Below, piece after piece: positions 17,698 to 63,947 of a stretch of 64,000 nt of DNA (the stretch's first letter is position 1; each line of letters starts with the position of its first letter). The translations under genes and the position numbers were made by a program. The stretch covers positions 11,281,302 to 11,345,301 of the forward strand of contig RPFO01000080.1 of NCBI GenBank assembly GCA_009746045.1, given 5' to 3'. This stretch comes from Mesostigma viride. Lineage: Eukaryota > Streptophyta > Mesostigmatophyceae > Mesostigmatales > Mesostigmataceae. The notes under the pieces are model-generated. The model was not told where the DNA came from and made no database searches. It saw nothing but the letters and a program-made list of their open reading frames with translations.

Positions 17698-17886
17698 ATG
17701 TGGCTTCGACCATTCCTGTGGCTGCATATCATCGACCAGTTTGCCCCTGTGACTTTGGATTCTCTTGTTGGATTCTCCTTTCTTTCCCTTTTCACTTGTG
17801 CATTGCTCTGGGCTACATTCAGATACCCCATGCAGTCCTGCGTCGCCGCCAACATTTTCCTAATCCAACCCAACGCGCATCACCCA

Positions 17887-19617
17887 ATGGCGTCTCCGCT
17901 GCCTCTTCTGCCCGGTGGAGCTTGTGCCACCTCCCTCTCCGTCACCTGTCCTTGTCAAGGCCAAGCCCTCTCGGCTCCATCATGCATAGCTGCCGCCAGA
18001 TCTTGCATAGACGTTCAAGTACATGAGAACTTGCTCCCGTGCCCAGAAGAAATCGTGGACGCGCGTATCTGGGACCTCCCTGCGGCGCTGACAGACGCGC
18101 GCATGAACCACATGGCCAGCTCGCCCGAGATGCGGCTAACCATCCAAAAGCAGCTGGGGGGAATCACGCTCCTGTCCCCCCGTTCGCCGCATCATTCCCC
18201 CCACTCCGACCCGTCGCTTGAAGAGATCTGCTCCGTGCCAGGCCTCGGCGCGCACGTACTCGCCGACGTGCCGCTCCCCGAGCGCCTGCGGTTGCGCCAC
18301 CTGTCCCGGTCGCTGCGATCCGCGGTCGATGAGTCCCTGGAGCACCTCACGGCCATCGCGGGGGGGGACGTGGACACCGTGGGCGGCGACCGCGCAGGAG
18401 CGCTCCTATGGCTGGTCTCGAAGTGCCCGAATCTTCGAACGCTCGGCGCGACCGCGACGGCTGCCCCTCCCGTGATGGCGCTAGCTGCGTCCCCTCCCCT
18501 CGTTCCTTCGTCCGCTGACCCGGTCCCACATGTGTTCAGTCTCCCCGACGAAGACGGCGAAGACCCCTCCTCCCCCTCGGGCCCCTCAGCACGCGGCATA
18601 TGCGGCTGGTGGCGGTGGGAAGGGCTGGATGCCATTCTCGTCTCGCTCTCGGACCACTGCCCCCGTGTGCGCTCGCTCTACATCGGGCGCTGCGCGGGTG
18701 TGACAGACGAAGGAATCTCCGCGGTGGGCCAGCGGTGCACCAAGCTGCGCCACCTGGACGTGGGCGAGTGCGAGGGCGTGACGGACGCAGGGATCAAGGC
18801 GGTGGCGCTCCACTGTCGTGGCCTGCGGCTGCTCTGTGTGAGCGGATGTCTCCACGTGACCGATGCCAGCATCTCCCTCCTCGGTGAGAAGTGCCCGCAT
18901 CTCCAGCTTCTGGGAGTGGCGGGGTGCCCCGGCGTGACTGACGCCAGCATAACACCGATCGCGCGCAACTGCCGGGGACTTCGGCACCTCAACGCGGCCT
19001 GCTGCGTGGGCGTCACGGACGCAAGCATAAAGCTGGTTGCCCGCAACTGCCCGGATCTCCAGCTGCTCGCGCTGCCCTGGTGCGTGGGCGTGACCGACGC
19101 TGGCGTGAGGGAGGTCGCTGAGCTGTGCCCTGGATTGCGCCACCTGGACGTCAAGAAATGCCGTGGCGTCACCGATTCCAGTATTCGGGCCGTGGGCGAG
19201 CGGTGCCCGAGGCTGCAGTATTTGGTGGCGTCGTATTGTGGCGGCGTGACGGACGCCAGCATCGCGGCGGTTGGGGCTAACTGTGGGGAACTGGAGCAGC
19301 TAGGGGTGGCCGGGTGTGATCGCGTAACGGATGCCAGCATTAGAATCGTCGTGGGGATGTGCCCCCAGTTGCTCCAGCTCTGCGTGCAGATGTGCAGCGG
19401 CGTGACGGATGACAGTGTCCAGTTGGTCGGGAGCCACTGCCCCCGGTTGCAGCGGCTGGGGGTCTCAGGGTGTTACCGCGTCACGTTCGAGGGGATCAAG
19501 GCCGCACTGGCACAGTGCCCCTGTTTGCGCTACCTGAGCGTGCGGGGCTGCGCGGGGGTCGTGAGGGATGACCTGGATGAGATCGCTGATGCGCAGGGGT
19601 GCAAGGTGATCTACTGA
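17887..19617 (+). CDS. F-box-like/LRR (AMN1/FBXL type) protein
   Basis: An intronless frame codes for 576 residues from ATG 17887 (cccaATGGCG); an in-frame ATG at 17698 would add 63 residues, including a hydrophobic stretch, but that DNA is AT-richer and less codon-like. After a variable N-terminus, ADVPLPERLRLRHLSRSLRSA resembles a degenerate F-box. The C-terminal ~320 residues hold about twelve cysteine-containing LRRs of ~26 residues (C..L..L....C.gVTDasI..va..). This is the FBXL/AMN1 pattern, in which the F-box binds Skp1 of an SCF ubiquitin ligase and the LRRs bind the substrate. The repeats are strikingly uniform (VTDASI recurs five times). The substrate is unknown, and the F-box call is weaker than the LRR call. 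Confidence 0.85.
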   Translation: MASPLPLLPGGACATSLSVTCPCQGQALSAPSCIAAARSCIDVQVHENLLPCPEEIVDARIWDLPAALTDARMNHMASSPEMRLTIQKQLGGITLLSPRSPHHSPHSDPSLEEICSVPGLGAHVLADVPLPERLRLRHLSRSLRSAVDESLEHLTAIAGGDVDTVGGDRAGALLWLVSKCPNLRTLGATATAAPPVMALAASPPLVPSSADPVPHVFSLPDEDGEDPSSPSGPSARGICGWWRWEGLDAILVSLSDHCPRVRSLYIGRCAGVTDEGISAVGQRCTKLRHLDVGECEGVTDAGIKAVALHCRGLRLLCVSGCLHVTDASISLLGEKCPHLQLLGVAGCPGVTDASITPIARNCRGLRHLNAACCVGVTDASIKLVARNCPDLQLLALPWCVGVTDAGVREVAELCPGLRHLDVKKCRGVTDSSIRAVGERCPRLQYLVASYCGGVTDASIAAVGANCGELEQLGVAGCDRVTDASIRIVVGMCPQLLQLCVQMCSGVTDDSVQLVGSHCPRLQRLGVSGCYRVTFEGIKAALAQCPCLRYLSVRGCAGVVRDDLDEIADAQGCKVIY

Positions 19618-34926: not shown

Positions 34927-37137
34927 CTAATAGCCCTGCTGCACCGCAAAATCAGCCCGCGTACGGCGGAGCATGATGTCCGCCATGGCCCGAGTCAGCG
35001 CCACCGACAAGCGCTGACGCCAATATGACGTCCAGGTCCGCGCCGACCATGGGGCCCGCTGGCCCTCCAGGTCCAGCCGGTCCTCCCGGAGCCGGCAACA
35101 CTCCTTGAAGAAGGCGGAGGTCAGGGGCCCCATGGCCCCAAACTCCTCCAGGACAAAGGGCACCACACGATGGTGCCCGACGTCGCCGTAGGCCAGGAGC
35201 TTGGCCCGCTCCGCCCGGTCCGCCGTGTAACCTGCCGTGAGGGAGGCCCCAGCCACGTGGCTAAGAGCCAAGGGCCGCGCCACCGAAACGTCAATAAGCA
35301 GATGCCGGCCACCCCCCTCAAAGTCCAGCACCACGATGTCAGGCCGGTGGTTGGGGGAATAGAAGGCAGCGCCATCCGCATCCTCGGACCGGATGTTCGC
35401 GTGGGGGAAAACCGACCGAATCATGGCGAGCACCACCGTCAGGAGGACAGTGTGCAAATACAAATACCAATTCTGATTCTGTTGGCCCCCCATGCAGGCA
35501 AGGTAGTGAGTCCCCGTGGGATCCAGCGGCTGCCCACAGCTACCACAAGGCCGCCCGGCCGGAACAAGAGGCTGCGGGGCAAATAGCTGGTGCCGGAGCG
35601 CCACCGAGTAGTGGCTGGGAGCCAAGGCGAATGGGGGGGCCATGGGAAGAGCACGAAGGTACGCCGAGCCCACACTCCGCAAGGAAAGCGAGAACAGCCA
35701 CGCACGTCCCTGGGCGTTGAGGTCCGCGAAAAGAGCAATCCAATCAGCCGTGTGCAGAATACCCGCGTAGGTTTTCTGGTGTTTATCGATGACGCGAGCA
35801 GGGAATGCGGCGGGAGATTGAACGGAGGCGACCGAGGGAGTGCCGCGAGGGAGGTGGCGCTGTACCGCCTGAGCGGCACGGACGGGAGAACAGGCCTGCT
35901 GGATCTCAGCATAGGCCTCCTGGATGGCGGTGACGAAGGGCAAAGGGCTGCTGGGGTCCAGGAGGTCAGGCGCTGCCGTTGCCAAAAGGGGCAGGAGCCG
36001 GCAGCTTTCCGCCCACGACTGAGCGACGGAGCCCAAAAAGGCTGCTGGGGCCAGCCGGGCGGCACGAGTCAGACCGCAGCCACCCATCCGTGCAGGCAGG
36101 GAGGCAATGCGAATAGCATGTGGCGGGAGGTCGGGGCCCGGGACCAGCTGCGCCAAGGCCGACTGGATGCGTTCGTCGTGGCCCTCGGCGGCCAGCCGGA
36201 CCTGAGACGGAAGAGCGCCCCGGAGCCAGTGAACGACGCGAGGGTGAGCGCAAAACCACAGAAGCAGACCCTTGGTCTGCGAATCATGAAGGCGCGCAAT
36301 CAAGGGCAGTACCTCAGTGCGTGCCTCGAGGGCGGCCCGCAGAGCATCGATGACAAACGCGGGGTCGCCAACCGGAACGCCGAGGACATCCAACCCATGG
36401 AGGCGCTCGTCCCGGCCCAAGAGCTGGGGCGGAAAGCCGGAGCAATCACCTTGGGGCGAGTACACCGCGCACTTGGCCAGGGTCAACTGGAGGTTGATGT
36501 CGGCCACCGCGGTCTGCAGTGCCAGCAGAGCCGCGGTGGTGTCCGGCACAGGGCCCAGAAGGTAGATATCATCCAAGTAGGCCTGAATAGCGACCGCCGG
36601 GTGGGCAGCATGGACCGCTTGGAGGCAACCCTGGAGGGGGGCGGCAAAGTACAGGGGTCCCAGGGGGTCCCCTTGCTGGGTGCCCGACCGCGACAGCAGG
36701 CCGCCGCGAGTGCCGTCCTCCATGATGTGAACCAGTTGGCCGGGCTGGCCGTAGCACACGGCTGTCCAAGCGTACAAGTCCTCGAAGGACTCCATGACGG
36801 CCGCAAACATGCTGGCGCGGGACAGACTGTTGAACGCGTTGTGGCAGTCGACCTTGACGACAGCGTGGGTGGGGTGGGCCTCGAGGTAGGCCTGCACCGA
36901 ATGGATGAGGATATCCGCCCCGCCTGGAGTCGTCACCCCCAGCTGGGCCGCCACCGAGGTCTCACCCGCTGCGAGGGGCGGGCAGAAAAAGGCACGGAGC
37001 TCGGGCGCCTTTTGGCGGCAGATCACTTTGCCCACGAGCTTGCGGAGCACCTCACCGCAGGCGATCGGGCGCACCTTGCCCTCGGGGGGGGCAAGACACC
37101 CTTGAGCAGAGCGAGGAGGCGAGCGCCCGCTAACCAC
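34927..37137 (-). CDS. Reverse transcriptase and restriction-like endonuclease
   Basis: The 736-residue frame starts inside the protein (it is entered by a frameshift at a G8 run near 37083). RT motifs are GKVRPIACGEVLRKLVGKV, VKVDCHNAFNSLSR (motif A Asp), GTQQGDPLGPLYFA (motif B) and IQAYLDDIYLLG (YLDD). After the thumb comes a CCHC knuckle, CGSCGQPLDPTGTHYLAC, and then a PD-(D/E)xK-type nuclease, RPDIVVLDFEGGGRHLLIDV. In this class the RT copies the RNA at a nick made by the nuclease. The frame is open to its natural stop at 34927. Confidence 0.88.
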   Translation of the reverse strand: MVSGRSPPRSAQGCLAPPEGKVRPIACGEVLRKLVGKVICRQKAPELRAFFCPPLAAGETSVAAQLGVTTPGGADILIHSVQAYLEAHPTHAVVKVDCHNAFNSLSRASMFAAVMESFEDLYAWTAVCYGQPGQLVHIMEDGTRGGLLSRSGTQQGDPLGPLYFAAPLQGCLQAVHAAHPAVAIQAYLDDIYLLGPVPDTTAALLALQTAVADINLQLTLAKCAVYSPQGDCSGFPPQLLGRDERLHGLDVLGVPVGDPAFVIDALRAALEARTEVLPLIARLHDSQTKGLLLWFCAHPRVVHWLRGALPSQVRLAAEGHDERIQSALAQLVPGPDLPPHAIRIASLPARMGGCGLTRAARLAPAAFLGSVAQSWAESCRLLPLLATAAPDLLDPSSPLPFVTAIQEAYAEIQQACSPVRAAQAVQRHLPRGTPSVASVQSPAAFPARVIDKHQKTYAGILHTADWIALFADLNAQGRAWLFSLSLRSVGSAYLRALPMAPPFALAPSHYSVALRHQLFAPQPLVPAGRPCGSCGQPLDPTGTHYLACMGGQQNQNWYLYLHTVLLTVVLAMIRSVFPHANIRSEDADGAAFYSPNHRPDIVVLDFEGGGRHLLIDVSVARPLALSHVAGASLTAGYTADRAERAKLLAYGDVGHHRVVPFVLEEFGAMGPLTSAFFKECCRLREDRLDLEGQRAPWSARTWTSYWRQRLSVALTRAMADIMLRRTRADFAVQQGY

Positions 37138-37885
37138 TCGCGCGCAGCGGGAGGAACGCGACCAGCCGCCAGGTCAATGAGGGTGTCAAAGAGAATGTCC
37201 TCGCCCCCATGCCCCACCAGGACCTCCAAGTGCTCGTAGCGCCAGCCCGACGGCCCGGTAGAGGAAGCCCGCGGGACCGCACGCATCACCTCCAGGAAGC
37301 AGTCGCGGTCCAGCCGGAGGGGGGCCGGCAGGGGGTCCGGCACGGGCAGCTGGAATCCGGGCTCCGCAGGGTGAAGAGCCTCCAAGGCCGCCAGGGTAGC
37401 CGCATTGGCGGGGGCGAGCTTGGCCATTTCCAAGCGGGTCATGGCCCGGCTGAGCTGCCCCTCGCGGACGAGGCGGATGACGTCGGCGGCCACCCGCTCG
37501 AAGTTGACCTCCCCCGACAGCCGGGCCGTGCGCGGGGGCGGCACGCCAAACAGCCCCTCCCAGTCCCCCTGCAGAAAGCGTCGGCAACGGGCAATAACCG
37601 CACCCTGGAGGCCGCGCACACCACGCCCGAGAGGGGTGAGGAGCAGGCGGGGGGTCACCATGTGCAGTTTAAAGCCCAGCGGGTCGTCCGGAGCGGCGTG
37701 CATGCGCCGGAGAGAAACGATTGCACATTGCGCGAAAAGGCTACGCGCGCGGTGGGGGAGGTCGGTCAGGGTAGACGTCGGGTTGATGGCGCATGCATCC
37801 CAGGGAACCGTGTCAAGCCAACGCCAACTGGCCGAGTAGTCGGGCGGCGGGGGCTGGGAGCCGGGGGAGCCGAGGCGGGAGGGGG
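37095..37885 (-). pseudogene. N-terminal part of the RT protein (different frame)
   Basis: This frame (open 37023-37997) supplies the pre-RT region, with WLDTVPWDACAINPTSTLTD and, at its end, RAVPRASSTGPSGWRYEHLEV, the usual start of RT motif 0/1 in this family, then LLALLKG. It joins the RT frame at the G8 run near 37083 and the RING/zinc-finger frame at G runs near 37880. The three together look like one protein interrupted by indels. Confidence 0.7.
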
Positions 37886-48126: not shown

Positions 48127-49890
48127 ATGGGCTTAACGTGCTTTAAAAAGCCGGCGGTCGTGTCCGATCCGCCGTCACCGCCGAAAAGAGTAGAGAAGGT
48201 TGATGTAGGAAATGCAAAAGCAGCCGAAACGGTCGAAGCCCCTGCTGCTCATGATCAAGCAGCCCCGCCGGTCGTCGGTTCAGCCCCGAAAGCCATCGCA
48301 AGCAACGGGCATGCAGTCAATCCCGCGACAGACGCCGCCGCCACGAACGGTCTCACCAAATGCCCCTTCCTCGACGGGGTGCAGCCTTCCTCCAAGGTTC
48401 CCATCTCCAAATGCCCGCTCGGCCATGGCACGGTCGGCAACAGCCCCTTCCCTGGCTACACGCATGGCAAGCATCCTGAGATCTGCTGGCATGGCTGCGT
48501 CCCCAACCCCAAAGTCCGGCGTGAGGAGACCGTTGACGAGTACCTGCGGCGAGAGGCCGTGGAGTACCAAAACCTCTTCCACTTCGAGCACGGCAGCTCC
48601 GAAGAGGTCAAGCGCAAGCGCGTCAACGAGATCATGGCGGAAATCGACGCGACCGGCACGTACACCCACACGCGCGAGGAACTCGAGTATGGCGCGCGCC
48701 TCTCCTGGCGCAACGCGCCGAAATGCGCCAACCGCAAGTTCTGGGACCAGCTCAGGCTCATTGACTCGCGCCACGTCAAGACAAACGCGGATATGTTTCG
48801 CAGCCTGTGCCTGCAGATGGTGGAGGCTAATGCCGCCATGGGCACGGCCGCCATGATGAACATCTTTCGAGCAAAGCACCCTCACGAGAGTGACGGGCCC
48901 CGCGTCTGGAACTCTCAGCTCTTCCGATTCGCCGCCTGGCGCCAGCGCGACATGTCGGTCCTGGGGGACCCTGCTGAGCTCAAGTTCACAGAGCTCATCC
49001 AGAACAAGTTTGGGTGGGAGCCTGAGCAGCGGAGCATGTTCACTATCCTGCCGATGGTGCTCCAGGTCAACCCCAACGAGCCCCCTGAGCTGTTTGAATG
49101 GGACCCCAACCTGGTCCTCACGGTGCCCCTCCGCCACCCCAAGTACCCCTGGTTCGGGAAACTGGGCCTGATGTGGTACGGCATCCCCGTTGTGGCCAAC
49201 ATGGAGCTCGAACTCGGGGGTCTCCGCTACACAGCCATCCCTTTTAACGGCTGGTACGCGGACACGGAGGTGCTCCGGAACATGACGGACGAGGGCCGGT
49301 TCAACATGCTCCCCGTGGTCGCACAGCACCTGGGCCTGAACATGTCAACACACGCGACGCTCTGGCGCGACGCGGCGCTGTGCGTGGTTAACGAGGCGAT
49401 CGTGAACTCGTACCAGCAGGCCAACGTGTCCATGGTCGACCACCACACGCTCATGCGGCAGTTCTGGGAGTGGTACAACAAGGAGAAGAAGGTGCGCGGC
49501 TACAGCCCCGGGAATTGGAAGTGGATCATCCCACCCGTGGCCGCACACACGAGCCGCTGCTACCTGGAGCTGAACAAGATGATCGAGTACACGCTCAACC
49601 CCGCGCTCATGTATGCCCCGGGCCCGGCCAAGTACAACGCAAAGTTCAAGCACATGGACACGTTCCGCATGGGCGAGGCCCCGATCAACGTGCTGAGCAA
49701 CCTTCCGCTAATGATGGGCCTCGGCAAGATGCTGCGGCGGCTCAAGGCGGACAAGGTCAAGATCGTGCTTCTCTACTCCACGGTCACCAACACGGCCAAG
49801 AACTACGCGCTGCGCACGCAGAACACGCTCAAGTCGCACTTCGACATCCGCGTGGTCAGCACCGAGGACTTCACCGACGAGGTCATCCAG
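48127..49890 (+). CDS. NOS: NOS exon 1: oxygenase domain, linker, start of FMN domain
   Basis: 588 codons from ATG 48127 (tgtcATGGGC). After a ~100-residue low-complexity N-terminus, the oxygenase spans ~105-500. Haem-ligand Cys200 is in SWRNAPKCANR, with the stacking Trp206. Substrate Glu381 is in FNGWYADTEV. VDHHTLMRQF (438-447) and RGYSPGNWKWIIPP (457-470) match the pterin/dimer region, including the conserved Trp. The zinc cysteines are partly kept (ICWHGC, 119-124). A hydrophobic-basic linker, LPLMMGLGKMLRRLKADKVK (526-545), sits where calmodulin binds in animal NOS. FMN binding starts with LLYSTVTNTAKNYA. The N-terminus MGLTCFKK resembles an acylation site, but Phe6 does not fit the myristoylation consensus. 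The exon ends ATCCAG|GTACGG. Confidence 0.96.
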
Positions 49891-50720
49891 GTACGGGTTG
49901 GGTTGCGCTGAGGTCATATAGGTACGTGTTGGTTGGCGCTCATGTCATCCAGGTGGGTTGCGCGCTGATGTCATCCAGGTGGGTTGTGCACTGATGTCAT
50001 CCAGGTGGGTTGCGCTGAGGTCATACAGGTGCATTGGTTAAAGGTCATCATGCGGGTTGCTGTTATCAATCCAGGTATGGTGGTGCTGTGGTCATCCAGG
50101 TGGGTTTATTGGTTGCTATTTATGTGACGAATGATTCGTATTGTCAGTATCGCCCAGGTACGCATTGCTAACTAAATACGATATGGCTGATATCGGCGCT
50201 ATCATCCAGGGGCTTGGTGCAAACGTCATCCAGGTGACTTGGTTGCTGTTTATGAGCGTCGCTAATTCTTTCTGGTAAGAGTGGCCCTATCAGATTGGTG
50301 CGTTCATCCAGGTGCGTTGGTTTCTAGTTGTCGTCCAGGTAGGTCCAAGGTGCTGAGGTCGATTCCAAGTCCGTGGATTGTTGGCAACACAAAGGCGATG
50401 TCACCCAGGTGTGTTGTTTAGAGGTCATACAGCTAGTGGTTCTTGTTATTGATTTATTTATGTCAAATATGGTATCATATGGCTATTTGGGGTTGTCAGT
50501 ATCATCCAGGTGCATTGTGATGAGGTCATGCAGGTGGGTACTGCTGAGGTAATCCAGGAATGGGTTGTGTTGGTCTCCCAGGTATCGATGGTTTTGATGT
50601 CATTCAGGTGGGTTGTCAGCGCTCGGAATACGGGGGCATGGAAGAAACGTTGTACCGTGATAAATACTGTAGGCTTCAGGTGCTTGGATACTACTGCATC
50701 CAGGTGGGTGCTGCTGAGGC

Positions 50721-53310
50721 CATCCAGGTAGGGGTCGTTCGTTGGTTGGCATGCAGCCAGTATTGTCCTTGTGTGCTCGTGTTCACTTGCCATCCAGGTA
50801 GGGCTCGTTCGTTGGTTGGCATGCAGCCAGTATTGTCCTTGTGTGCTCGTGTTCACTTGCCATCCAGGTAGGGCTCGTTCGTTGGTTGGCATGCAGCCAG
50901 TATTGTCCTTGTGTGCTCGTGTTCACTTGCCATCCAGGTAGGGCTCGTTCGTTGGTTGGCATGCAGCCAGTATTGTCCTTGTGTGCTCGTGTTCACTTGC
51001 CATCCAGGTAGGGCTCGTTCGTTGGTTGGCATGCAGCCAGTATTGTCCTTGTGTGCTCGTGTTCACTTGCCATCCAGGTAGGGCTCGTTCGTTGGTTGGC
51101 ATGCAGCCAGTATTGTCCTTGTGTGCTCGTGTTCACTTGCCATCCAGGTAGGGCTCGTTCGTTGGTTGGCATGCAGCCAGTATTGTCCTTGTGTGCTCGT
51201 GTTCACTTGCCATCCAGGTAGGGCTCGTTCGTTGGTTGGCATGCAGCCAGTATTGTCCTTGTGTGCTCGTGTTCACTTGCCATCCAGGTAGGGCTCGTTC
51301 GTTGGTTGGCATGCAGCCAGTATTGTCCTTGTGTGCTCGTGTTCACTTGCCATCCAGGTAGGGCTCGTTCGTTGGTTGGCATGCAGCCAGTATTGTCCTT
51401 GTGTGCTCGTGTTCACTTGCCATCCAGGTAGGGCTCGTTCGTTGGTTGGCATGCAGCCAGTATTGTCCTTGTGTGCTCGTGTTCACTTGCCATCCAGGTA
51501 GGGCTCGTTCGTTGGTTGGCATGCAGCCAGTATTGTCCTTGTGTGCTCGTGTTCACTTGCCATCCAGGTAGGGCTCGTTCGTTGGTTGGCATGCAGCCAG
51601 TATTGTCCTTGTGTGCTCGTGTTCACTTGCCATCCAGGTAGGGCTCGTTCGTTGGTTGGCATGCAGCCAGTATTGTCCTTGTGTGCTCGTGTTCACTTGC
51701 CATCCAGGTAGGGCTCGTTCGTTGGTTGGCATGCAGCCAGTATTGTCCTTGTGTGCTCGTGTTCACTTGCCATCCAGGTAGGGCTCGTTCGTTGGTTGGC
51801 ATGCAGCCAGTATTGTCCTTGTGTGCTCGTGTTCACTTGCCATCCAGGTAGGGCTCGTTCGTTGGTCGGCATGCAGCCAGTATTGTCCTTGTGTGCTCGT
51901 GTTCACTTGCCATCCAGGTAGGGCTCGTTCGTTGGTTGGCATGCAGCCAGTATTGTCCTTGTGTGCTCGTGTTCACTTGCCATCCAGGTAGGGCTCGTTC
52001 GTTGGTTGGCATGCAGCCAGTATTGTCCTTGTGTGCTCGTGTTCACTTGCCATCCAGGTAGGGCTCGTTCGTTGGTTGGCATGCAGCCAGTATTGTCCTT
52101 GTGTGCTCGTGTTCACTTGCCATCCAGGTAGGGCTCGTTCGTTGGTTGGCATGCAGCCAGTATTGTCCTTGTGTGCTCGTGTTCACTTGCCATCCAGGTA
52201 GGGCTCGTTCGTTGGTTGGCATGCAGCCAGTATTGTCCTTGTGTGCTCGTGTTCACTTGCCATCCAGGTAGGGCTCGTTCGTTGGTTGGCATGCAGCCAG
52301 TATTGTCCTTGTGTGCTCGTGTTCACTTGCCATCCAGGTAGGGCTCGTTCGTTGGTCGGCATGCAGCCAGTATTGTCCTTGTGTGCTCGTGTTCACTTGC
52401 CATCCAGGTAGGGCTCGTTCGTTGGTTGGCATGCAGCCAGTATTGTCCTTGTGTGCTCGTGTTCACTTGCCATCCAGGTAGGGCTCGTTCGTTGGTTGGC
52501 ATGCAGCCAGTATTGTCCTTGTGTGCTCGTGTTCACTTGCCATCCAGGTAGGGCTCGTTCGTTGGTCGGCATGCAGCCAGTATTGTCCTTGTGTGCTCGT
52601 GTTCACTTGCCATCCAGGTAGGGCTCGTTCGTTGGTTGGCATGCAGCCAGTATTGTCCTTGTGTGCTCGTGTTCACTTGCCATCCAGGTAGGGCTCGTTC
52701 GTTGGTTGGCATGCAGCCAGTATTGTCCTTGTGTGCTCGTGTTCACTTGCCATCCAGGTAGGGGTCGTTCGTTGGTTGGCATGCAGCCAGTATTGTCCTT
52801 GTGTGCTCGTGTTCACTTGCCATCCAGGTAGGGCTCGTTCGTTGGTTGGCATGCAGCCAGTATTGTCCTTGTGTGCTCGTGTTCACTTGCCATCCAGGTA
52901 GGGCTCGTTCGTTGGTTGGCATGCAGCCAGTATTGTCCTTGTGTGCTCGTGTTCACTTGCCATCCAGGTAGGGCTCGTTCGTTGGTTGGCATGCAGCCAG
53001 TATTGTCCTTGTGTGCTCGTGTTCACTTGCCATCCAGGTAGGGCTCGTTCGTTGGTTGGCATGCAGCCAGTATTGTCCTTGTGTGCTCGTGTTCACTTGC
53101 CATCCAGGTAGGGCTCGTTCGTTGGTTGGCATGCAGCCAGTATTGTCCTTGTGTGCTCGTGTTCACTTGCCATCCAGGTAGGGCTCGTTCGTTGGTTGGC
53201 ATGCAGCCAGTATTGTCCTTGTGTGCTCGTGTTCACTTGCCATCCAGGTAGGGCTCGTTCGTTGGTTGGCATGCAGCCAGTATTGTCCTTGTGTGCTCGT
53301 GTTCACTTGC
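50721..53310 (+). repeat. 70-bp tandem array, 37 units, each with an AG|GT junction
   Basis: Units start at 50721 and recur every 70 bp without indels. Each begins catccag|gtagggctcgtt, which reproduces the end of exon 1 and its donor (catccag|gtacgg), and is preceded by a pyrimidine-leaning gtgttcacttgc. Variation is minimal (ttggc/tcggc in a few units, gctcg/ggtcg in the first unit and near 52765). Near identity over 2.6 kb implies recent amplification or homogenisation. Confidence 0.97.
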
Positions 53311-53596
53311 CATCCAGGTATGGCTCGCGGGTGCATGGGCGCGGTCAGACTCTTGCTTGTGCGCCCATGTTTCGAGGTCATCCATGTGCTTGGCTCGCCC
53401 TCATAAGGGGCATTGAATATTGTGGATTTTGGGTGCCGTAGGAAGCTACCGAGAGATGCCGCGCCTGGATGTATTGGACGACAGGGGCCCGGGGTGGGTG
53501 GGCCTGGCCCGGCAGCTGACTTGCGCCCTGTCCCACCTTTGCAACCGCACCATCCATTTCCCCATTCCCTCCTCTTACCTGACTCATCATATGGGG

Positions 53597-53654
53597 CCCC
53601 TAAACCCTAAACCCTAAAACCTAAAACCTAAAACCTAAAACCTAAAACCTAAAA
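53597..53654 (+). repeat. Interstitial telomere-like repeat flanked by 17-bp direct repeats
   Basis: Ccctaaa units pass into (acctaaa) units. The 17-bp sequence ACTCATCATATGGGGCC occurs at 53582-53598 and again at 53656-53672, bracketing the array. Confidence 0.9.
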
Positions 53655-53861
53655 CACTCATCATATGGGGCCTGCGTTCACAACCGCATCATGTGCCTCA
53701 TTCACCCTGCTCCGGCCATTTGAAATTTAGTCACGCTCATTTTCACCACAACGCCCCCACCCTCAATGCCAGTAAACCCTCTTTCATGTGAGCTGACTTT
53801 TTCCCCGTGCCAAGTCTTAAATTGCGTCGTGTGCTTTTCACCACCATAACCCCACCCTCAG

Positions 53862-54671
53862 CGCGACATGATCATCGTGTACATGCTGTGCACGTACGGA
53901 TCCGGCGCTCCCCCTGCGTCCGCACGCAAGTTCCTCTCCTACCTCACCTCCACGCACGCCAGCCGGCTCCAAGGCATGCTCTTCTGTGTGTTTGGCGTCG
54001 GCAGCTCCGCCTACCCCCGCTTCTGTGGCGCGGCCGACCTGGCGTCCAGCCTCCTCTTCCAGGCGGGTCTCACCGAGCTCATCCCCACGGGCAAGGTGGA
54101 CGTGATGGCCAAGACGGAGCCAGTCTACCAGATCTGGCTCAAGCAGTTTGTGACCGCGCTGGCGAAACGCGGGATTGCGCCCAAGGCGTGCCGGGCCATG
54201 CTCACAAAGCTCGCGTTATCGAGCCAGGACAGTGGGGCGGCCAAGCAGGCGTTTGTGCCGTGGTACAACCTGGGCGATATCACGGGCAGCTTCCTAGAGC
54301 TGGCAGTTGACCCCAAGCGGCTGCAGGCCAAGTGCGTGGACGTCAAGGAGATGCTCCCCTGTGAGGACCCCATCCGGTCCACGATGCTGTGCTCGCTCGA
54401 CTTTTCCGTCTCAGGCCACAGCCAGTACTACCCCGGGGACCATATCTCGATCTACTTCACGAACAACCTGCAGGACCCGGAAATGGAGGCGTTCTTGGCA
54501 GGGTTTGGGTTTGGGTCGACACGCAGCCTGCAGAGCGTGTTTGTGCTCACGTCGGTGGACACGTCGACCAAGGGCAAGGTGGAGCCGCCGTTCCCCACGC
54601 CCAACACGTATGAGAACGTGTTCCGCATGTTTGTCAACGTGCGTGAGCCGCCCTCAGAGACGGCAGTGCAG
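53862..54671 (+). CDS. NOS: NOS exon 2: FMN domain and start of FAD domain
   Basis: 270 codons, entered in phase 0 after cctcag. RDMIIVYMLCTYGSGAPP completes the flavodoxin-like fold (compare VVTSTFGNGDPP of animal NOS), followed by CVFGVGSSAYPRFCGAAD. Between SARKFLSYLTS and MLFCVFGVGS there are only a few residues, so the ~45-residue autoinhibitory loop of animal eNOS/nNOS is absent, as in iNOS. The FAD-domain part includes YYPGDHISIYFTNN. The exon ends GTGCAG|GTGAGA. The FMN domain passes electrons from FAD to the haem. Confidence 0.95.
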
Positions 54672-54756
54672 GTGAGAAGGCTGGATTCATGTATTGTTCG
54701 TTGGCAGCGTGTTTATTATTTTCTATGCATAACGTGGTTTTTTGTATGATATATAT

Positions 54757-54902
54757 GTATAGAGCTTTGACATGGCTCTTTATATAGGTTTATAGCTGGG
54801 CGTTTGCTTTGGTTTGAGTGATTTCACTCTGCTGTAAGTAATTATATGTTTATTATATATATATTTACGTGGGTGCCTTTACTCTGCTGTAAGTAATTAT
54901 AT
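54757..54902 (+). mobile_element. 5'-truncated 3' end of the REL-type LINE
   Basis: 54757-54847 matches the reverse complement of 34796-34885, the 3' UTR of the LINE at 34789-42648, with about one mismatch in 90. The terminal phrase actctgctgtaagtaattat recurs at 54881-54902 after 33 bp of other sequence, so the very end is duplicated. It lies in the same sense as the NOS gene. Confidence 0.85.
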
Positions 54903-55336
54903 TTTTTAATATATATATTATGGTGTTTTCTTGTCTCTTTCCCCTGGCCCTTTCCCCTCAATTATAGGTCCCTTATTGTCTTTTTTAAAATGAGAGGATT
55001 CAGTTCTGTAGAAGATGCTTCAAGGGAAGAATTCAGGTGGGTCAGACGGTGCAGATGTTTTAATGGCCTGAATTATTGCGATGGTTGCAATGGTTACAAT
55101 AGTTACAATGGTGACAATAGTCACAATCGTACAACAGCGACCGTGAAAGAAGTGGCAATGACATGAGTGTGGTGACATCTCTAGAATTGGTAGAATTGTA
55201 AACTATATGGAGGTAGTGGAAGCTTTTATTGGGCCAAAGGGGGCCAAATGGGCCAACTGCATGATGGTCAAAATGGTCAAATTGGGCTAACAATCAATGC
55301 TCAAAATGTTCAAAGTGGCCATGAAAATCAATGTCA

Positions 55337-55782
55337 TCAAAATGGTGGCAATGGTGGCAATTGGTGGCAATGGTGGCAATTGGTGGCAATCGTGGCAATG
55401 GTGGCAATTGGTGGCAATCGTGGGAATGGTGGAAGTGGTGCAAGTGGTGGCAATGGTGGCCATGGTGGCCATGGTGGCAATGGTGGCAATGGTGGCAATG
55501 GTGGCAATGGTGGCAATGGTGGCAATAGTGGCAATGGTGGCAATGGCGGCAATGGTGGCAACGGTGGCAACGGTGGCAACGGTGGCAACGGTGGCAACGG
55601 TGGCAACGGTGGCAACGGTGGCAACGGTGGCAACGGTGGCAACGGTGGCAACGGTGGCAACGGTGGCAACGGTGGCAACGGTGGCAACGGTGGCAACGGT
55701 GGCAACGGTGGCAACGGTGGCAAGGGTGGCAAGGGTGGCAAGGGTGGCAAGGGTGGCAAGGGTGGCAAGGGTGGCCATGGTG
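55337..55782 (+). repeat. 9-bp minisatellite (GGTGGCAAY)n
   Basis: About 50 units of ggtggcaat, then ggtggcaac, then ggtggcaag. The left flank (from ~55060) holds decayed units such as ggttacaat and ggtcaaaat. Confidence 0.97.
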
Positions 55783-56040
55783 GTCCAAACAGTCCAAACA
55801 GTCCAAACAGTCCAAATGGTCCAAATGGTCCAAACAGTTAAGATGGTCCAAACAGTTTAGATGGTCCAGATGGTCCAGATGGTCCAGATGGTCCAGATGG
55901 TCCAGATGGTCCAGATGGTCCAGATGGTCCAGATGGTCCAGATGGTCCAGATGGTCCAGATGGTCCAGATGGTCCAGATGGTCCAGATGGTCCAGATGGT
56001 CCAGATGGTCCAGATGGTCCAGATGGTCCAGATGGTCCAA
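55783..56040 (+). repeat. 9-bp minisatellite (GGTCCARAY)n
   Basis: ggtccaaac/ggtccaaat units pass into about 20 perfect ggtccagat units. It continues the 9-bp register of the preceding array. Confidence 0.97.
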
Positions 56041-56343
56041 ACTTCATCTGGTTTTAAATGGGGGGGTATCAATGTGGCTTAGACAGTTGAAGTGGTTAAT
56101 GAAAGTTAATGTGGTCAAAAGGGTGAAAAGGGTGAAAAGGGTCAAAAGGGTAAAAATTCTTGGATCGTAATCTAGTTTTCAAGGTGTTTCTTATCACACC
56201 CCCCTTGCAACCCCCTCAAAAAAATTACCTCACGCGGAACACACCCTAAATTAGGAAAAAAATTCATCATGAAAGGCTAACGCCGACTCAAGTAAAAAAT
56301 GCATGGCTGCCTTTTCACATGGACCGCCCGATGGCATCTCCAG

Positions 56344-57252
56344 GTGCTGGCTGGCTTTGCGACCGACGCCAAGGACATCCTGGCGCTGAGCAAGGCGGCC
56401 AAGAACTATGACGCATGGCTGGTCGAGGTCGAGCCCCGCTGGATCGACACCTTTGAGCTCTTCCCCTCGCTAGCCAACAAGCTGCCCCTAAACATCTTCT
56501 TCCAGCTTGTGCCGCTCATCGTGCCGCGCGCCTACTCGATCGCGTCCGCGCCCGGCTGGGTGGACCCCCACACGGTCGACATCCTCGTCGGCCGGCTCAC
56601 GTACGCAACCAAAACGGGCAAGACGCGGCGCGGTCAGTGCTCCAACTTCATCACGCGCGAACTGTGCAAGGGTGACCTGGTGGACTTCAAGATCTCCATG
56701 GCCCCCGCGTTCCACCTCCCCTTTGACTCCACAGAGCCGATCCTCATGGTCGGCGCGGGCACCGGGCTTGCCCCCTTCCGCGGCTTCTGGCAGGAGCGGT
56801 CCCGCCTGATGCGCAACGGCCACAAGCTGGGCCCCGCGGTGCTGGTCTTTGGCTGCCGCACGCGCGCCAAGGACATGATGTGCTACGAGGAGCTGATGCA
56901 CCTCAAGCGGCAGGGCGTGCTCAAGGACGTCATCATCGCGTACAGCCGCGAGCCGGGCACCGCAAAGGAGTACGTGCAGGACGCGATCACGAATCGCACC
57001 GAAGCGCTGCGTACGATGATGGTGCACCCAAAGGCCCACGTGTACATCTGCGGGGACACGATGATGAGCGCCGCGGTCAGCGGCTCGTTGGCCAAGCTCA
57101 TGGGGCGCGCCGCGTTTGACGCCATGGTCGAGCGGGGTGGGTTCCACGAGGACGTGTTCGGTATCACGTCGGCGGGCGCAAGCAAGATGCAGGCGCAGCA
57201 GGGGGCGGCCAGCGCAAAGGCGCTGATCGCGGAGCTGGGCAGCCTGGCACAG
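56344..57252 (+). CDS. NOS: NOS exon 3: FAD and NADPH domains
   Basis: 303 codons starting VLAGFATDAKDILALSKAAK, entered after ctccag. FAD binding: RAYSIASAPG (compare RYYSISSSP), GQCSNFITRELCKGD. NADPH binding: ILMVGAGTGLAPFRGFWQER, VLVFGCRTRAKDMMCYEE, IIAYSREPGTAKEYVQDAI, VYICGDTMMSAAV. It ends with FHEDVFGIT, where animal NOS also ends, followed by a ~35-residue Ala/Gln-rich linker. The exon ends GCACAG|GTACGT. This part oxidises NADPH and feeds FMN. Confidence 0.96.
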
Positions 57253-57773
57253 GTACGTGAGGGGGTTGATGCACTTTCGGCTACGTCATATGTTGTGCAG
57301 TGGATACGGCTCGTGGCCCCTATGTTAGGTGTTTTTTTGCCTGTTGGATGACTCTATGCAGCTGAGGCAGCCTGGCGCAGGTACAGGAGGTGCATTCATC
57401 AGCGTGGGGCAAGGGGTCGTGTCTCCATTGAGGTGTCTCAAATTGTGGTAGCTGCAGTTTCCCACATATTGCCAACATTCTTGCTGGTAGTGCGTCCCTT
57501 CACGTTGGTTGTGTCTTCTCTAGCATCATTCTCTAATAATATTCTTTAGTAATCTTCTCTAATTTCCTTATCTTATCATCCCCTCAAATGCCACAAGTGG
57601 ACAAGATGCGACAAGAGGGCGACGTCGCCGGCAGGCAGGCCGGTGAAGGAAGTTCTCCTCTTCTCTACCTTCTGCTCTCCTCCACCTTATAGTCTCCTTT
57701 ACCTTCTACTCTCCGGCACCATTGATCGCCTGATATCTTCTGCTGCTCACGCACTCACTTGTAATTGCGACAG
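57253..57773 (+). other. NOS intron 3
   Basis: 521 bp, GT-AG, phase 0. It carries a copy of the exon 3 end and donor (gcagcctggcgcaggtacag at 57366) and a copy of the exon 4 start (gcgacaagagggcgacgtcg near 57609). Confidence 0.85.
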
Positions 57774-58457
57774 GACGGCGACGTCGCCGGCATGGAGGCC
57801 ATCCTGAACAACCCCGAGCGCCTGGGCGCCAAGTTTGACCTCAACGGCTCGGACACGAGCGGCAACACGCTGCTCCACGTGGCCGTTCAGGCCGGCCAGC
57901 TGGACGTGGTCCGCATGCTCATCGGCCGCAAGATCGGCCTGAACTCGCTCGACCAGTGGGGGCTTACCCCTCTCGCCGCCGCGAGGCGCGAGAGCAAGGA
58001 CGAGATCGCGTCCGCGCTTGAGTCTGCGGGCGGGCTCATGGTCTCCTCGTTCCACCGCAACTTCTACCCGCTACACACCAAGGTCATCCTGAACGACCTG
58101 GACGGGTTGAGGGCGGACCTAGCGGCGGGCGCAAACGTGAACCAGCCGGACATGCTGGGGGGCAGCGCGCTCCACCTCGCGTGCGCGCTCGGCCGCGACG
58201 AGGCCACCAAGATACTCCTGGCAGCCGGCACTGCCGTCAACATGGTCAACCGCGTGGGCAACTCTGCCATTCAAGCCGCACTCGCCTTCTCCCGCCTGGA
58301 GTGCGTGGAGCTGTGTAAGGCCGCGGGGGGGACGCTGGTGGCTGGGATCGGAGGGGACTTCACGTCGGGCCGGCCGTCGACGTTTGACTGGGACCCCGCA
58401 AACGATGAGGTGGCAAAGGACCTGGGCATCACGCCGGAGCAGATCACTATCGTTCAG
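57774..58457 (+). CDS. NOS: NOS exon 4: ankyrin repeats
   Basis: 228 codons. At least four ankyrin-type repeats are visible: GNTLLHVAVQAGQLDVVRML, WGLTPLAAARRESKDEIASA, a degenerate one with DLAAGANVNQPDM, then GGSALHLACALGRDEATKIL and GNSAIQAALAFSRLECVELC. Ankyrin repeats bind proteins and could anchor or regulate the enzyme. It starts DGDVAGMEAIL right after the acceptor gcgacag and ends GTTCAG|GTGAGA, in frame with exon 3 and exon 5. The link to NOS rests on phase, lack of stops and splice sites, not on a transcript. Confidence 0.88.
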
Positions 58458-58512
58458 GTGAGAAAGGGCGCTGGGTGCAAGTGACGGAGGAGCGCGTAAG
58501 GTCTATCCCCAG

Positions 58513-58698
58513 GTACGCGCCTTGCATAGGCAGTCCATGGACCGGGACCTGGGCATCACGTCAAAGCAGATCACGGTCGTGCAGGGGGGCTGTCCTTTCA
58601 TATGTTGGTGCAGCAAACAGGTTCAGATCACGGTCGTGCAGGTGGGCTGTCCTTGCGTGTGTTGGTGCAGCAAACAGGTACAGATCACGGTCGTTCAG
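58513..58698 (+). other. Candidate alternative exon copied from the end of exon 4
   Basis: After tatccccag, 62 codons are open in frame. They contain DLGITSKQITVVQ (exon 4 ends DLGITPEQITIVQ) and two more VQITVVQ units spaced 57 bp apart. The last ends gttcag|gtgagaaagg, identical to the exon 4 donor. Inclusion would keep the frame. Confidence 0.35.
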
Positions 58699-58782
58699 GT
58701 GAGAAAGGCGTCAGGTGCAGAGGGAGGGAGGAGAAAGTCAGGCTGTGTATGCTGCCCCCCCCCCCCCCCCCCCCGCACGGCT

Positions 58783-59278
58783 CCTGGTCATGGCTTTATG
58801 GGGCAAGGGCCATGGGTTCTCTGCCTGATCGACCGTCTTCCTCCAGTTCTCCCCATGCCAATCCACCTGATGCAGTGCTCCTGGTCATGGCTTTATGGGG
58901 CAAGGGCCATGGGTTCTCTGCCTGATCGACCGTCTTCCTCCAGTTCTCCCCATACCAATCCACCTGATGCAGTGCTCCTGGCCATGGCTTTATGGGGCAA
59001 GGGCCATGGGTTCTCTGCCTGATCGACCGTCTTCCTCCAGTTCTCCCCATGCCAATCCACCTGATGCAGTGCTCCTGGCCATGGCTTTATGGGGCAAGGG
59101 CCATGGGTTCTCTGCCTGATCGACCGTCTTCCTCCAGTTCTCCCCATGCCAATCCACCTGATGCAGTGCTCCTGGTCATGGCTTTATGGGGCAAGGGCCA
59201 TGGGTTCTCTGCCTGATCGACCGTCTTCCTCCAGTTCTCCCCATGCCAATCCACCTGATGCAGTGCTCCTGGCCATGG
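58783..59278 (+). repeat. 97-bp tandem repeat (~5 copies)
   Basis: Each unit runs from gctcctggtcatggctttat through gatcgaccgtcttcctccag to cacctgatgcagt. Copies differ at a few bases (ggtcatgg/ggccatgg, catgcc/cataccaat). Confidence 0.96.
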
Positions 59279-60099
59279 CCGTCTATGTTACACATACAAT
59301 GATTTCGTGTGTTCAGGGGTTTAGAGTTTGGTGCCTCCCTGATGCAAACCACCACCACGGCCACAACACCTGCGCCCCCCCCCGCAGGGCTCCTGGTTGT
59401 GACCTACGATCTACCCTTTCTCTTTCATGGTCCCTACGCCCACAACCCCAACTCCATGGCCCCAGAACCCACGGCCACATAACACACGCCGCCAGACCCG
59501 CCGCCACCAAGCCCACAATCCCCCACATGCATGGCTCCTGGTCCTGACTGTTGTATGTGCTATATATATTTATCGAGAAAGGTACCTTAATAAAACTTGC
59601 TATATAGTAGTATCGAGGAGACAACCAGCGCAGGCCAGTAAAGTAAATACATCCCTTAGTACATACCTGCCAGCTCTGGATGTCTCTTTCTATACGTATA
59701 GTATATTGGCTTCCCTAGACTGTACGTTTACTCCCGCTGTACTATATTTATAACATTCTGTACATTTTCTCCCGGATGCAAACCCAACTTGCGGCCCCGA
59801 AACCATGCCCCCCCCCCCCGCTGGGCTCCGGGTCGTGGCGTACAACACATACTGCTATAACTTTGTTTTTATCCTCACCCTTTCCTGGCACGTAAACTTA
59901 AGACCTTCCTGTCACCCTGTATTTTACTTATCCTCGTGCCCCCTGCCACCCCGCGGCAGGCGCGGCTGTCCACCCTCGGTTGTCAACCCTTGACTGTCAT
60001 GAACCCACGGCTGTTAACCCTTTTCCTTTCACCCTTTCTATTACTGATCCTCGTGCCCCCTGCCAACTCTCGGCTGCCAATACTCGGCTATCCTTGCAG

Positions 60100-60522
60100 G
60101 GCTCGTGGTCATGGCTCTCGCAAGGCACATTCCCTGAGAAGACGCGGACCGCGCTCGAGGAATACGGTGCCAAGCTCTTCCACTGCCTCTTCGAGATCTC
60201 CCCTGCGCTGCTGGAGCTGTTCCCCTTCCGCGATCCCGTGACAGGCGTCCCCGTCGAGGCTGAGATGCGCTCGCACGGGCTCAGGGTGACGACCGCGCTA
60301 GGCGACGTGCTGAACGACCTGAACGACCTCTCGGTGCTCATCCCGAAGACCGAGGCGCTGATCAAGCGGCACGTCAAGTATGGGGTCAAGGTGGAGCACT
60401 ACGACATACTGTCGATGTGTCTGGCGATGACGCTGGAAAGGGTGCTGGAGACGAGCTGGAGCGATGACGAGCGGGTCGCGTGGAATGCGGTGCTGGGCAT
60501 GCTCACGCGGACCGCGCAGCGG
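60100..60522 (+). CDS. NOS: NOS exon 5: globin domain
   Basis: 141 codons, entered after tccttgcag. It covers a full neuroglobin/non-symbiotic-type globin fold: LFPFRD (CD region Phe), distal His59 in EMRSHGLRV, proximal His91 in LIKRHVKYGVK, and WNAVLGMLTR in the last helix. These His residues are about 1448 and 1480 of the whole protein. Known NOS-globin fusions in cyanobacteria use the globin as NO dioxygenase to yield nitrate; a similar role is inferred here. If the last intron is not spliced, the frame stops at 60538-60540 after five more codons (VREHV). Confidence 0.9.
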
Positions 60523-60811
60523 GTGAGGGAACATGTTTGACATTTGATGTTTGTTTGATGTTTGTTTGATGGTTGTTTGATGGTTGTGTAGGCAAACATG
60601 CGAGGAAACACACATGATGTTTGTGTGGATGAACGTGCCATGAGCATGGCTATTGTGTGGCTGTACCTCTGTTGATTTGGTCGGTTTGTCATTGTGTGTG
60701 GTTATTGCCACGTGAAACGTAGTGCTGGGTCGATCCACGAGGACGGCACAGAAGGTGAGGGGATGAACAAGTAGTATGAATTATTTAGTAGTAATTACTT
60801 TCATGATTTTT

Positions 60812-62775
60812 TTGTTCGGGGTGTTCGGGGTGTTGGGGGTGTTGGGGGTGTTCGGGGTGTTCGGGGTGTTCGGGGTGTTCGGGGTGTTCGGGGTGTTCGG
60901 GGTGTTCGGGGTGTTCGGGGTGTTCCGGGTGTTCGGGGTGTTCGGGGTGTTCGGGGTGTTCGGGGTGTTCGGGGTGTTCGGGGTGTTCGCGGTGTTCGGG
61001 GTGTTCGCGGTGTTCGGGGTGTTCGGGGTGTTCGGGGTGTTCGGGGTGTTCGGGGTGTTCGGGGTGTTCGGGGTGTTCGGGGTGTTCGGGGTGTTCGGGG
61101 TGTTCGGGGTGTTCGGGGTGTTCGGGGTGTTCGGGGTGTTCGGGGTGTTCGGGGTGTTGGGGGTGTTCGGGGTGTTCGGGGTGTTCGGGGTGTTCGGGGT
61201 GTTCGGGGTGTTCGGGGTGTTCGGGGTGTTCGGGGTGTTCGGGGTGTTCGGGGTGTTCGGGGTGTTCGGGGTGTTCGGGGTGTTCGGGGTGTTCGCGGTG
61301 TTCGCGGTGTTCGCGGTGTTCGGGGTGTTCGGGGTGTTCGGGGTGTTCGGGGTGTTCGGGGTGTTCGGGTGTTCGGGGTGTTCGGGGTGTTCGGGGTGTT
61401 CGGGGTGTTCGGGGTGTTCGGGGTGTTGGGGGTGTTCGGGGTGTTCGGGGTGTTCGGGGTGTTCGGGGTGTTCGGGGTGTTCGGGGTGTTCGGGGTGTTC
61501 GGGGTGTTCCGGGTGTTGGGGGTGTTCGGGGTGTTCGGGGTGTTCGGGGTGTTCGGGTGTTCGGGGTGTTCGGGGTGTTCGGGGTGTTCGGGGTGTTGGG
61601 GGTGTTCGGGGTGTTCGGGGTGTTCGGGGTGTTCGGGGTGTTCGGGGTGTTCGGGGTGTTCGGGGTGTTCGGGGTGTTCGCGGTGTTCGGGGTGTTCGCG
61701 GTGTTCGCGGTGTTCGGGGTGTTCGGGGTGTTCGGGGTGTTCCGGGTGTTCGGGGTGTTCCGGGTGTTCGGGGTGTTCGGGTGTTCGGGGTGTTCGGGGT
61801 GTTCGGGGTGTTCGGGGTGTTCGGGGTGTTCGGGGTGTTCGGGGTGTTCGGGGTGTTCGGGGTGTTCGGGGTGTTCGGGGTGTTGGGGGTGTTCGGGGTG
61901 TTCGCGGTGTTCGGGGTGTTCGGGGTGTTGGGGTGTTCGGGGTGTTCGGGGTGTTCGGGGTGTTCGCGGTGTTCGGGGTGTTCGGGGTGTTCGGGGTGTT
62001 CGGGGTGTTCGGGGTGTTCGGGGTGTTCGGGGTGTTCGGGGTGTTCGGGGTGTTCGGGGTGTTCGGGGTGTTCGGGGTGTTCGGGGTGTTCGGGGTGTTC
62101 GGGGTGTTCGGGGTGTTCGGGGTGTTCGGGGTGTTCGGGGTGTTCGGGGTGTTCGGGGTGTTCGGGGTGTTCGGGGTGTTCGGGGTGTTCGGGGTGTTCG
62201 GGGTGTTCGGGTGTTCGGGGTGTTGGGGTGTTGGGGTGTTGGGGTGTTCGGGGTGTTCGGGTGTTCGGGGTGTTCGGGGTGTTCGGGGTGTTCGGGGTGT
62301 TCGGGGTGTTCGGGGTGTTCGGGGTGTTCGGGGTGTTCGGGGTGTTCGGGGTGTTCGGGGTGTTCGGGGTGTTCGGGGTGTTCGGGGTGTTCGGGGTGTT
62401 CGGGGTGTTCGGGGTGTTCGGGGTGTTCGGGGTGTTCGGGGTGTTCGGGTGTTCGCGGTGTTCGCGGTGTTCGGGGTGTTCCGGGTGTTCGGGGTGTTCG
62501 GGGTGTTCGGGGTGTTCGGGGTGTTCGGGGTGTTCGGGTGTTCGGGGTGTTCGGGGTGTTCGGGGTGTTCGGGGTGTTCGGGGTGTTCGGGGTGTTCGGG
62601 GTGTTCGGGGTGTTCGGGGTGTTCGGGGTGTTCGGGGTGTTCGGGGTGTTCGGGGTGTTCGGGGTGTTCGGGGTGTTCGCGGTGTTCGCGGTGTTCGGGG
62701 TGTTCGGGGTGTTCGGGGTGTTCGGGGTGTTCGGGGTGTTCGGGGTGTTCGGGGTGTTCGGGGTGTTCGGGGTGT
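60812..62775 (+). repeat. 9-bp minisatellite (GGGGTGTTC)n, ~2 kb
   Basis: About 215 units of ggggtgttc, with scattered variants (cggtgttc, gggggtgttg, and 8-bp units). It is open in several frames on both strands only because the unit lacks stops; the VFG/GCS/GVR readings are not proteins. Confidence 0.98.
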
Positions 62776-63109
62776 GGTCATCGTTGCTGTTGCCGCCGGC
62801 AAAGACTAACTGCTCAGAGCTCACGAGCACCGCGCAGAGGGTGGGGGTGGGAGGACAGTTGTATTCAAATCAAAGTCTTCCCATGTGGTACACCTTTTTT
62901 GCGGCTGTGGTTGGTTTAGTTGTTGTCGCTGTTGTTAATTGAAGTATTCCCATTTTGTGGACGAATACATCCACGACCAGAGCCAGGACGCACCATTGCA
63001 TGCACCGGGAGGTTGCGAGGTTTCGCGTCATAGTCTCTGTTTCGCTTCCATTTCCCATAGAATGAGCTTCCAAGTTCTGTTTGGCATCTGGGAGATGGTA
63101 CTCCAGCAC

Positions 63110-63715
63110 ACTTCCCCCCACCCTACCCGAACCCCCCCCCCCAACCCCCCACCCACCCCACCCCACCCACCCACCCACCCACCCACCCATCCACCCACCC
63201 ACCCACCCACCCACCCACCCACCCACCCACCCACCCACCCACCCACCCACCCACCCACCCACCCACCCACCCACCCACCCCCGCCCCGCCCCGCCCCCGC
63301 CCGCCCGCCCCGCCCGCCCCGCCCGCCCCGCCCGCCCCGCCCGCCCGCCGCCCCGCCCGCCCGCCCCGCCCCGCCCCGCCCCGCCCCGCCCCGCCCCGCC
63401 CCGCCCCGCCCCGCCCCGCCCCGCCCCGCCCCGCCCCGCCCCGCCCCGCCCCGCCCCGCCCCGCCCCCCGCCCCGCCCCGCCCCGCCCGCCCCCCCCCCC
63501 GCCCCGCCCCCCGCCGCCCCGCCCCCCCCCCCCCCCCCCCCCCCCGCCCGCCCCCGCCCCCCCGCCCCCCCCCCCGCCCCGCCCCGCCCCGCCCCGCCCC
63601 GCCCCACCCCGCCCCACCCCGCCCACCCCCCCCGTCCAGCCCCAGCCCCACCCCCACCCCACCCCACCCCACCCCACCCCACCCCACCCCACCCCACCCC
63701 ACCCCACCCCACCCC
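63110..63715. repeat. C-rich tracts (CCCA)n, (CCCCG)n, (CCCCA)n
   Basis: Three adjoining low-complexity blocks: 4-bp CCCA to ~63278, 5-bp CCCCG with C runs to ~63605, and 5-bp CCCCA to 63715. The minus strand is G-rich with dense G3-G5 runs. Confidence 0.97.
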
Positions 63716-63884
63716 GGTTTGTTTATGCGTATGCGTATGTGGGGGGTGGGCAGGAGAAGGTGGACATTTTTTAGTTTATCAATGGGTTCTTGCGTCTGCG
63801 TTGCTGGTACATGAGTCGGGCTGCGATGGCGTGGATCACATTGGTAACTGACGTGGTGACATGGTGACGGTTGCGCTCTGACAG

Positions 63885-63947
63885 GTTTACGGCGAAGCTG
63901 CAGAAGAAAGCAGTGGGGCAGGCGCCGGAGCAGCATCTGTCCCCTAG
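63885..63947 (+). CDS. NOS: NOS exon 6: short C-terminal tail (tentative)
   Basis: Twenty codons after gctctgacag, VYGEAAEESSGAGAGAASVP, then TAG at 63945-63947. It is in phase with exon 5, and its composition is Ala/Gly/Glu-rich like the other linkers of this protein. No domain is present, so support is only phase, splice sites and the echo of exon 5 nearby. The alternative is a stop in retained intron sequence at 60538. Confidence 0.5.
   Translation, partial: VYGEAAEESSGAGAGAASVP

Follow-up and report, generated by a model that had tools for sequence, protein, structure and literature searches.

What does a nitric oxide synthase (NOS) do with a globin at its C-terminus, and where did that globin come from? 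These questions are raised by a gene in a stretch of 64,000 nucleotides of Mesostigma viride DNA (hereafter the window), in which an algal NOS continues in frame into ankyrin repeats and a globin. To our knowledge, land plants are without a NOS of the animal kind, and algal NOS genes therefore bear on the rise of plant NO signalling. The C-terminal ankyrin-globin tail departs from the cyanobacterial enzyme both in the order of its domains and in the type of its globin, and NOSs that carry it represent an independent natural test of whether linkage to a globin is selected for NO removal or for nitrate supply. We speculate, with a probability of roughly 0.3 for the reading as a whole, that the NOS of a streptophyte alga acquired its globin in an event separate from those in bacteria, that this globin (Phe B10, His E7) is of a plant-haemoglobin-like kind, and that ankyrin repeats serve as the spacer in front of it. 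Fed by the enzyme's own reductase, the globin would turn the single chain into either a converter of arginine to nitrate or a self-limiting source of NO, and an altered haem-Cys loop might retune NO release.

The architecture itself is already known. The first-pass annotation had suspected that relatives might have been described, and they have: Chatelain et al. 2021 (PMC8728061) report that KnNOS2 of Klebsormidium nitens ends in an ANK motif followed by an M-family globin. The same source lists C-terminal NOS-globins from Chlorokybus, Mesostigma viride, Chlamydomonas incerta, C. schloesseri and Edaphochlamys, together with one from Gonium taken from earlier work (PMC8728061). The idea of a novel architecture was consequently rejected, the NOS-ankyrin-globin layout having been in print since 2021 (PMC8728061), and the gene here is a eukaryotic algal NOS of this published kind. 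Independent origins of NOS-globins were already suggested by its describers, who state that the biological functions of the group need study (PMC8728061). Our literature search found no activity data for any C-terminal NOS-globin. What is new here is the comparison of the globin with those of bacterial globin-NOSs, in both scores and distal pocket.

The gene lies on a 12,137,724-base contig of a genome of 439,911,974 bases in 2,243 contigs; the published Mesostigma assembly is given as 441,847,188 bp in 2,363 scaffolds, with a mean intron of 1,142 bp (PMC6947507). Six exons on the forward strand, from 48127 to 63947, join into one 1,550-aa frame, and all five introns are GT-AG and in phase 0. 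Exon 1 (48127..49890, 588 aa) encodes an N-terminal extension, the NOS oxygenase domain (residues 139-499), a linker and the start of the FMN domain. The remaining FMN (flavodoxin) domain and the first half of the FAD domain fall in exon 2 (53862..54671, 270 aa), followed in exon 3 (56344..57252, 303 aa) by the second half of the FAD domain, the NADPH domain and the NOS C-terminal region. Ankyrin repeats, a linker and what is likely the start of globin helix A occupy exon 4 (57774..58457, 228 aa), and the globin occupies exon 5 (60100..60522, 141 aa). Exon 6 as first proposed (63885..63947) contributes 20 aa and a stop. The frame and splice sites of this earlier six-exon model stood for every exon, but its last exon and its 3′ end did not fare as well. 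Although its splice signals fit, exon 6 is doubtful because its GC3 is 0.43, compared with 0.84-0.91 in exons 1-5, and because a Pfam scan of it gave no domain match. Intron GC is 0.47-0.66. A 3′ end at 63947 lacks support, since exon 5 could read on in frame to a stop at 60538-60540.

Pfam scans, for which the exon reads with a few flanking intron residues served as queries, confirmed the domain order of this protein of about 1,550 aa: NOS oxygenase, flavodoxin, FAD/NADPH reductase, ankyrin repeats and globin. NO_synthase matched exon 1 at 395 bits (3e-118; cut-off 22.7), Flavodoxin_1 matched exon 2 (2e-12) and NAD_binding_1 matched exon 3 (3e-14). FAD_binding_1 matched in two pieces that meet at the exon 2/3 junction, with profile positions 10-116 in exon 2 (8e-10) and 114-222 in exon 3 (7e-13). 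Ank_2 matched exon 4 at 62 bits (8e-17) in two stretches, one of them at 21-82, and Globin matched exon 5 at 67 bits (E 2e-18 to 7e-18). These matches are far beyond chance. The FMN, FAD and NADPH modules are thus all in the same predicted chain as the oxygenase, in which WRNAPKC ends at the haem Cys200 and GWYADTE at the substrate Glu381. The first-pass annotation had described a complete NOS with these residues and cofactor motifs, followed in frame by ankyrin repeats and a C-terminal globin, and had named NO_synthase, Ank and Globin as the profiles by which to check it; all three were found (395, 62 and 67 bits).

Exon 1 matched eNOS in the PDB at 1.5e-90, and the whole protein matched nNOS with 527 bits in total and syNOS with 470 bits over residues 134-1133. 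Oxygenase identity is 42% to the eNOS fragment and 40% to the syNOS fragment. Before its C-terminal helices, the oxygenase has two residues more than those of eNOS and syNOS; a lariat insert is mentioned for algal NOSs (PMC8728061), and the two residues are perhaps this insert. A C-x3-C motif at residues 120-124, in the N-terminal extension, fits the atypical zinc site reported for algal NOSs in the same source (PMC8728061). The haem-Cys loop (48712-48744, residues 194-206) reads C-A-N-R, where eNOS, nNOS and syNOS have C-x-G-R. At Cys+2, where the residue here is Asn, 78 of 80 bacterial NOS ORFs carry Gly and the other two Ala; this set comprises the best 80 of 288 relatives. As judged from sequence, NOS activity is predicted, and this unusual loop would count against an explanation in which the protein makes NO.

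Introns 1, 2 and 5 are largely tandem arrays. Intron 1 contains a 70-bp array of 37 copies (50719..53327), intron 2 contains 9-bp arrays of 49 and 26 copies (55341-56039), and intron 5 a 9-bp array of 219 copies (60813..62775). A short tract of the CCTAAAA type, resembling plant telomere repeats, lies inside intron 1 at 53599-53655. In two introns, a close copy of the intron's own exon edge recurs: the acceptor edge in intron 3 (57607-57640, 28/32 bases) and the donor edge in intron 4 (58543-58710, 27/32 bases). For four of the ten junctions, not one of 200 shuffled queries did as well. When 32-mers from inside the exons served as the control, only two edges still stood out clearly, the intron 3 acceptor (rank 1 of 653) and the intron 4 donor (rank 12 of 653, among neighbouring windows). 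The start of intron 1 (49879-50031) holds a short array resembling its own donor, with an edge score that ties the best internal 32-mers. Retroelements flank the NOS gene, given the reverse-transcriptase ORFs within the window at 8534-9493 (forward strand) and 34930-37173 (reverse strand), and the ORFs for RT/RNase H and integrase that lie shortly past the window's downstream end (L082, 2848-6225, reverse strand). Elsewhere in the window, a 665-aa open frame at 17620-19614 (forward strand) has leucine-rich-repeat matches, with a whole-protein E of 3e-11 and no single stretch that passes alone.

The globin in exon 5 has the features of the 3-over-3 (M family) type: the profile match of 67 bits, Phe at CD1 (Phe1430) and a proximal His at F8 (His1480). 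Its distal pocket is formed by Phe1416 (B10) and His1448 (E7), and it thus has the distal and proximal His that the earlier annotation had assigned to it. These helix labels were placed by alignment. In the alignment, Arabidopsis haemoglobin 1 has the same Phe B10/His E7 pair, whereas Tyr/Leu occupies these positions in all eight bacterial NOS globins compared. Structure prediction without an alignment was unusable (mean pLDDT 43.3 for exon 5 and 48.6 for exon 4). The genome yielded five more globin matches, at 34.6-38.1 bits; compared with the NOS globin, these five scored just 13.6-20.2 bits, values that are lower bounds from exon-wise searches. Also in this genome, though on other contigs, are four 88-aa globin exons that resemble one another (L084-L087) and a 194-aa frame (L088); together they make up a separate group of globins that is distant from that of the NOS.

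What might the globin do? In the mechanism we propose, electrons would travel from NADPH via FAD and FMN to the haem of the oxygenase, where NO would be made from arginine. Tethered by the ankyrin repeats directly behind the FAD/NADPH module, a haem-loaded globin would take up O2 and NO, oxidise NO to nitrate, and be re-reduced by the same module. Such reduction is sterically conceivable, because the globin directly follows that module and the ankyrin repeats; for the repeats themselves, docking or spacing would be guesses. Flavohaemoglobins, with globin and reductase in the reverse order, offer a parallel for reduction of the globin by that module. Plant class 1 haemoglobins are NO dioxygenases, and the Phe B10/His E7 pocket, equal to that of Arabidopsis haemoglobin 1, would count for such a role. 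The replacement by Phe of the Tyr B10 found in 8/8 bacterial NOS globins would count against it. In syNOS, the globin is described as an NO dioxygenase that the FNR module can reduce, with a C2 domain that switches between the two haems (PMC12922734). Expression of syNOS in E. coli is reported to have raised nitrate about twofold (PMC6104048). Of the roles considered, oxidation of NO to nitrate by a globin that draws on its own reductase seems to us the most likely, at about even odds, and an arginine-to-nitrate enzyme or self-limiting NO source would be plausible.

Animal NOSs carry a regulatory C-terminal tail behind the FAD/NADPH module, and the globin sits where that tail lies. The same fused protein might therefore use its globin as a sensor or regulator, which would bind O2 or NO, perhaps in a six-coordinate state with both His as ligands, and control electron flow in the reductase via the ankyrin repeats, with little nitrate made. 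The presence of both His E7 and His F8, and of neuroglobin and plant haemoglobin among the PDB matches, is consistent with this, as is the regulation of syNOS by an extra domain and a C-terminal tail (PMC12922734). However, NO dioxygenation is what the globin does in the globin-NOS that has been studied best (PMC12922734), and we regard a sensing or regulatory globin as the main rival, possible if somewhat unlikely.

Either role supposes one protein, and a single transcript is likely: the frame and splice signals point that way, as do the short intron 3 and the published relatives. Could the NOS instead stop at or just after exon 3, with the ankyrin and globin exons forming a separate downstream gene? 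An in-frame ATG early in exon 4 (residue 1167) makes a separate start possible. Further, when exon 3 residues were joined to exon 4, no ankyrin match reached into exon 3; among five profiles, Ank_4 rose from 31.3 to 36.5 bits, one gained 0.4 bits and three fell. Nevertheless, exon 3 ends in a phase-0 GT donor, intron 3 measures just 521 bases, and the relatives are described as single fused proteins (PMC8728061), which together make two transcription units improbable. At the next junction, adding 25 residues of exon 4 raised the match to Arabidopsis haemoglobin from 40.1 to 41.3 bits and extended it across the exon 4/5 boundary, where helix A aligns to 3zhw. With the same residues, other matches moved little or fell (3wfw 41.8 to 41.9, 3ubc 40.2 to 39.7, 3s1i 40.1 to 39.7 and 4b4y 39.2 to 38.8 bits), and the number of matches at E 0.001 dropped from 61 to 57. 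The helix A alignment through this junction gives weak support to the joining of exons 4 and 5.

The origin of the fusion can be approached through the bacterial enzymes. Pfam scans covered 13 bacterial NOS ORFs, chosen from the 34 longer than 700 aa among 80 loci in all. Eight of the 13 had a globin match (L065 exactly at the cut-off), in every case before the oxygenase. One of the others has EF-hands instead, in four the reductase is laid out differently and the oxygenase comes last, and none of the 13 gave an ankyrin match. The globin here lies at the C-terminus, unlike the N-terminal globin of the syNOS type. In single-sequence scoring with filters off, it scored 40.2, 39.9, 38.7 and 38.0 bits against four solved globins and 1.2-9.6 bits against the eight bacterial NOS globins, a contrast that is partly selected because the four comparators are the best PDB matches. 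These four are fragments of Arabidopsis haemoglobin 1, of two bacterial globins of the Methylacidiphilum type (PDB naming) and of neuroglobin. With default filters, phmmer found no match to the globin at E 10 in the 80 bacterial NOS ORFs. Pattern searches yielded nine matches for the globin in viral contigs, and 20 for NOS exon 1 alone in the genome-contig collection, with no relative among them. In the reverse direction, a profile built from the eight bacterial NOS globins gave the globin here 22.0 bits, plant haemoglobin 22.5, neuroglobin 21.3 and two bacterial single-domain globins about 42 bits, a result that is neutral on independent fusion. That the globin derives from the N-terminal globin of a bacterial-type globin-NOS and moved to the C-terminus is the least probable alternative: this profile does match it, as it does other globins, but plant haemoglobin and neuroglobin score equally, the single-sequence scores stay at or below 9.6 bits, and the pocket residues differ in 8/8. 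An independent fusion, as the first-pass annotation had proposed, is thus favoured with modest support by the low scores, the differing pocket and the order of domains in the eight bacterial ORFs, though the reverse profile adds nothing to it.

Among known systems, animal NOSs (nNOS, 8t1j; eNOS, 3eah) share the oxygenase and diflavin reductase of the gene here, without ankyrin repeats or globin. The FMN insert of the nNOS type is absent from it, since only seven residues separate the two aligned FMN pieces, compared with 48 in nNOS. The syNOS of Synechococcus PCC 7335 (PDB 9q05, 9q15) has the same NOS core and likewise a globin in the chain. Its globin, however, precedes the oxygenase, and it is described with a C2 domain and a pseudoglobin (PMC12922734). 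The bacterial globin-NOSs compared differ from the gene here in globin subtype and pocket. The gene is probably the listed Mesostigma viride MvNOS (Mv7497-RA-2), to which it was matched by description: a C-terminal globin is listed for MvNOS, as here, although the text of that source does not state ankyrin repeats for it (PMC8728061) and its gene id may stem from a different assembly of Mesostigma. Klebsormidium is described as having a second, standard NOS (PMC8728061), whereas the genome here gave only one NO_synthase match (one candidate, one match). KnNOS2 (GAQ90485.1), also compared by description, resembles the gene here in that an ANK motif and an M-family globin come behind its oxygenase and reductase, and in that this globin has both the distal and the proximal His; its extension of about 380 residues is close to the 389 contributed here by exons 4-6 (PMC8728061). 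The layout of KnNOS2, in which the reductase is followed, within one open frame, by ankyrin repeats and then a globin, is thus present in Mesostigma at the level of the DNA.
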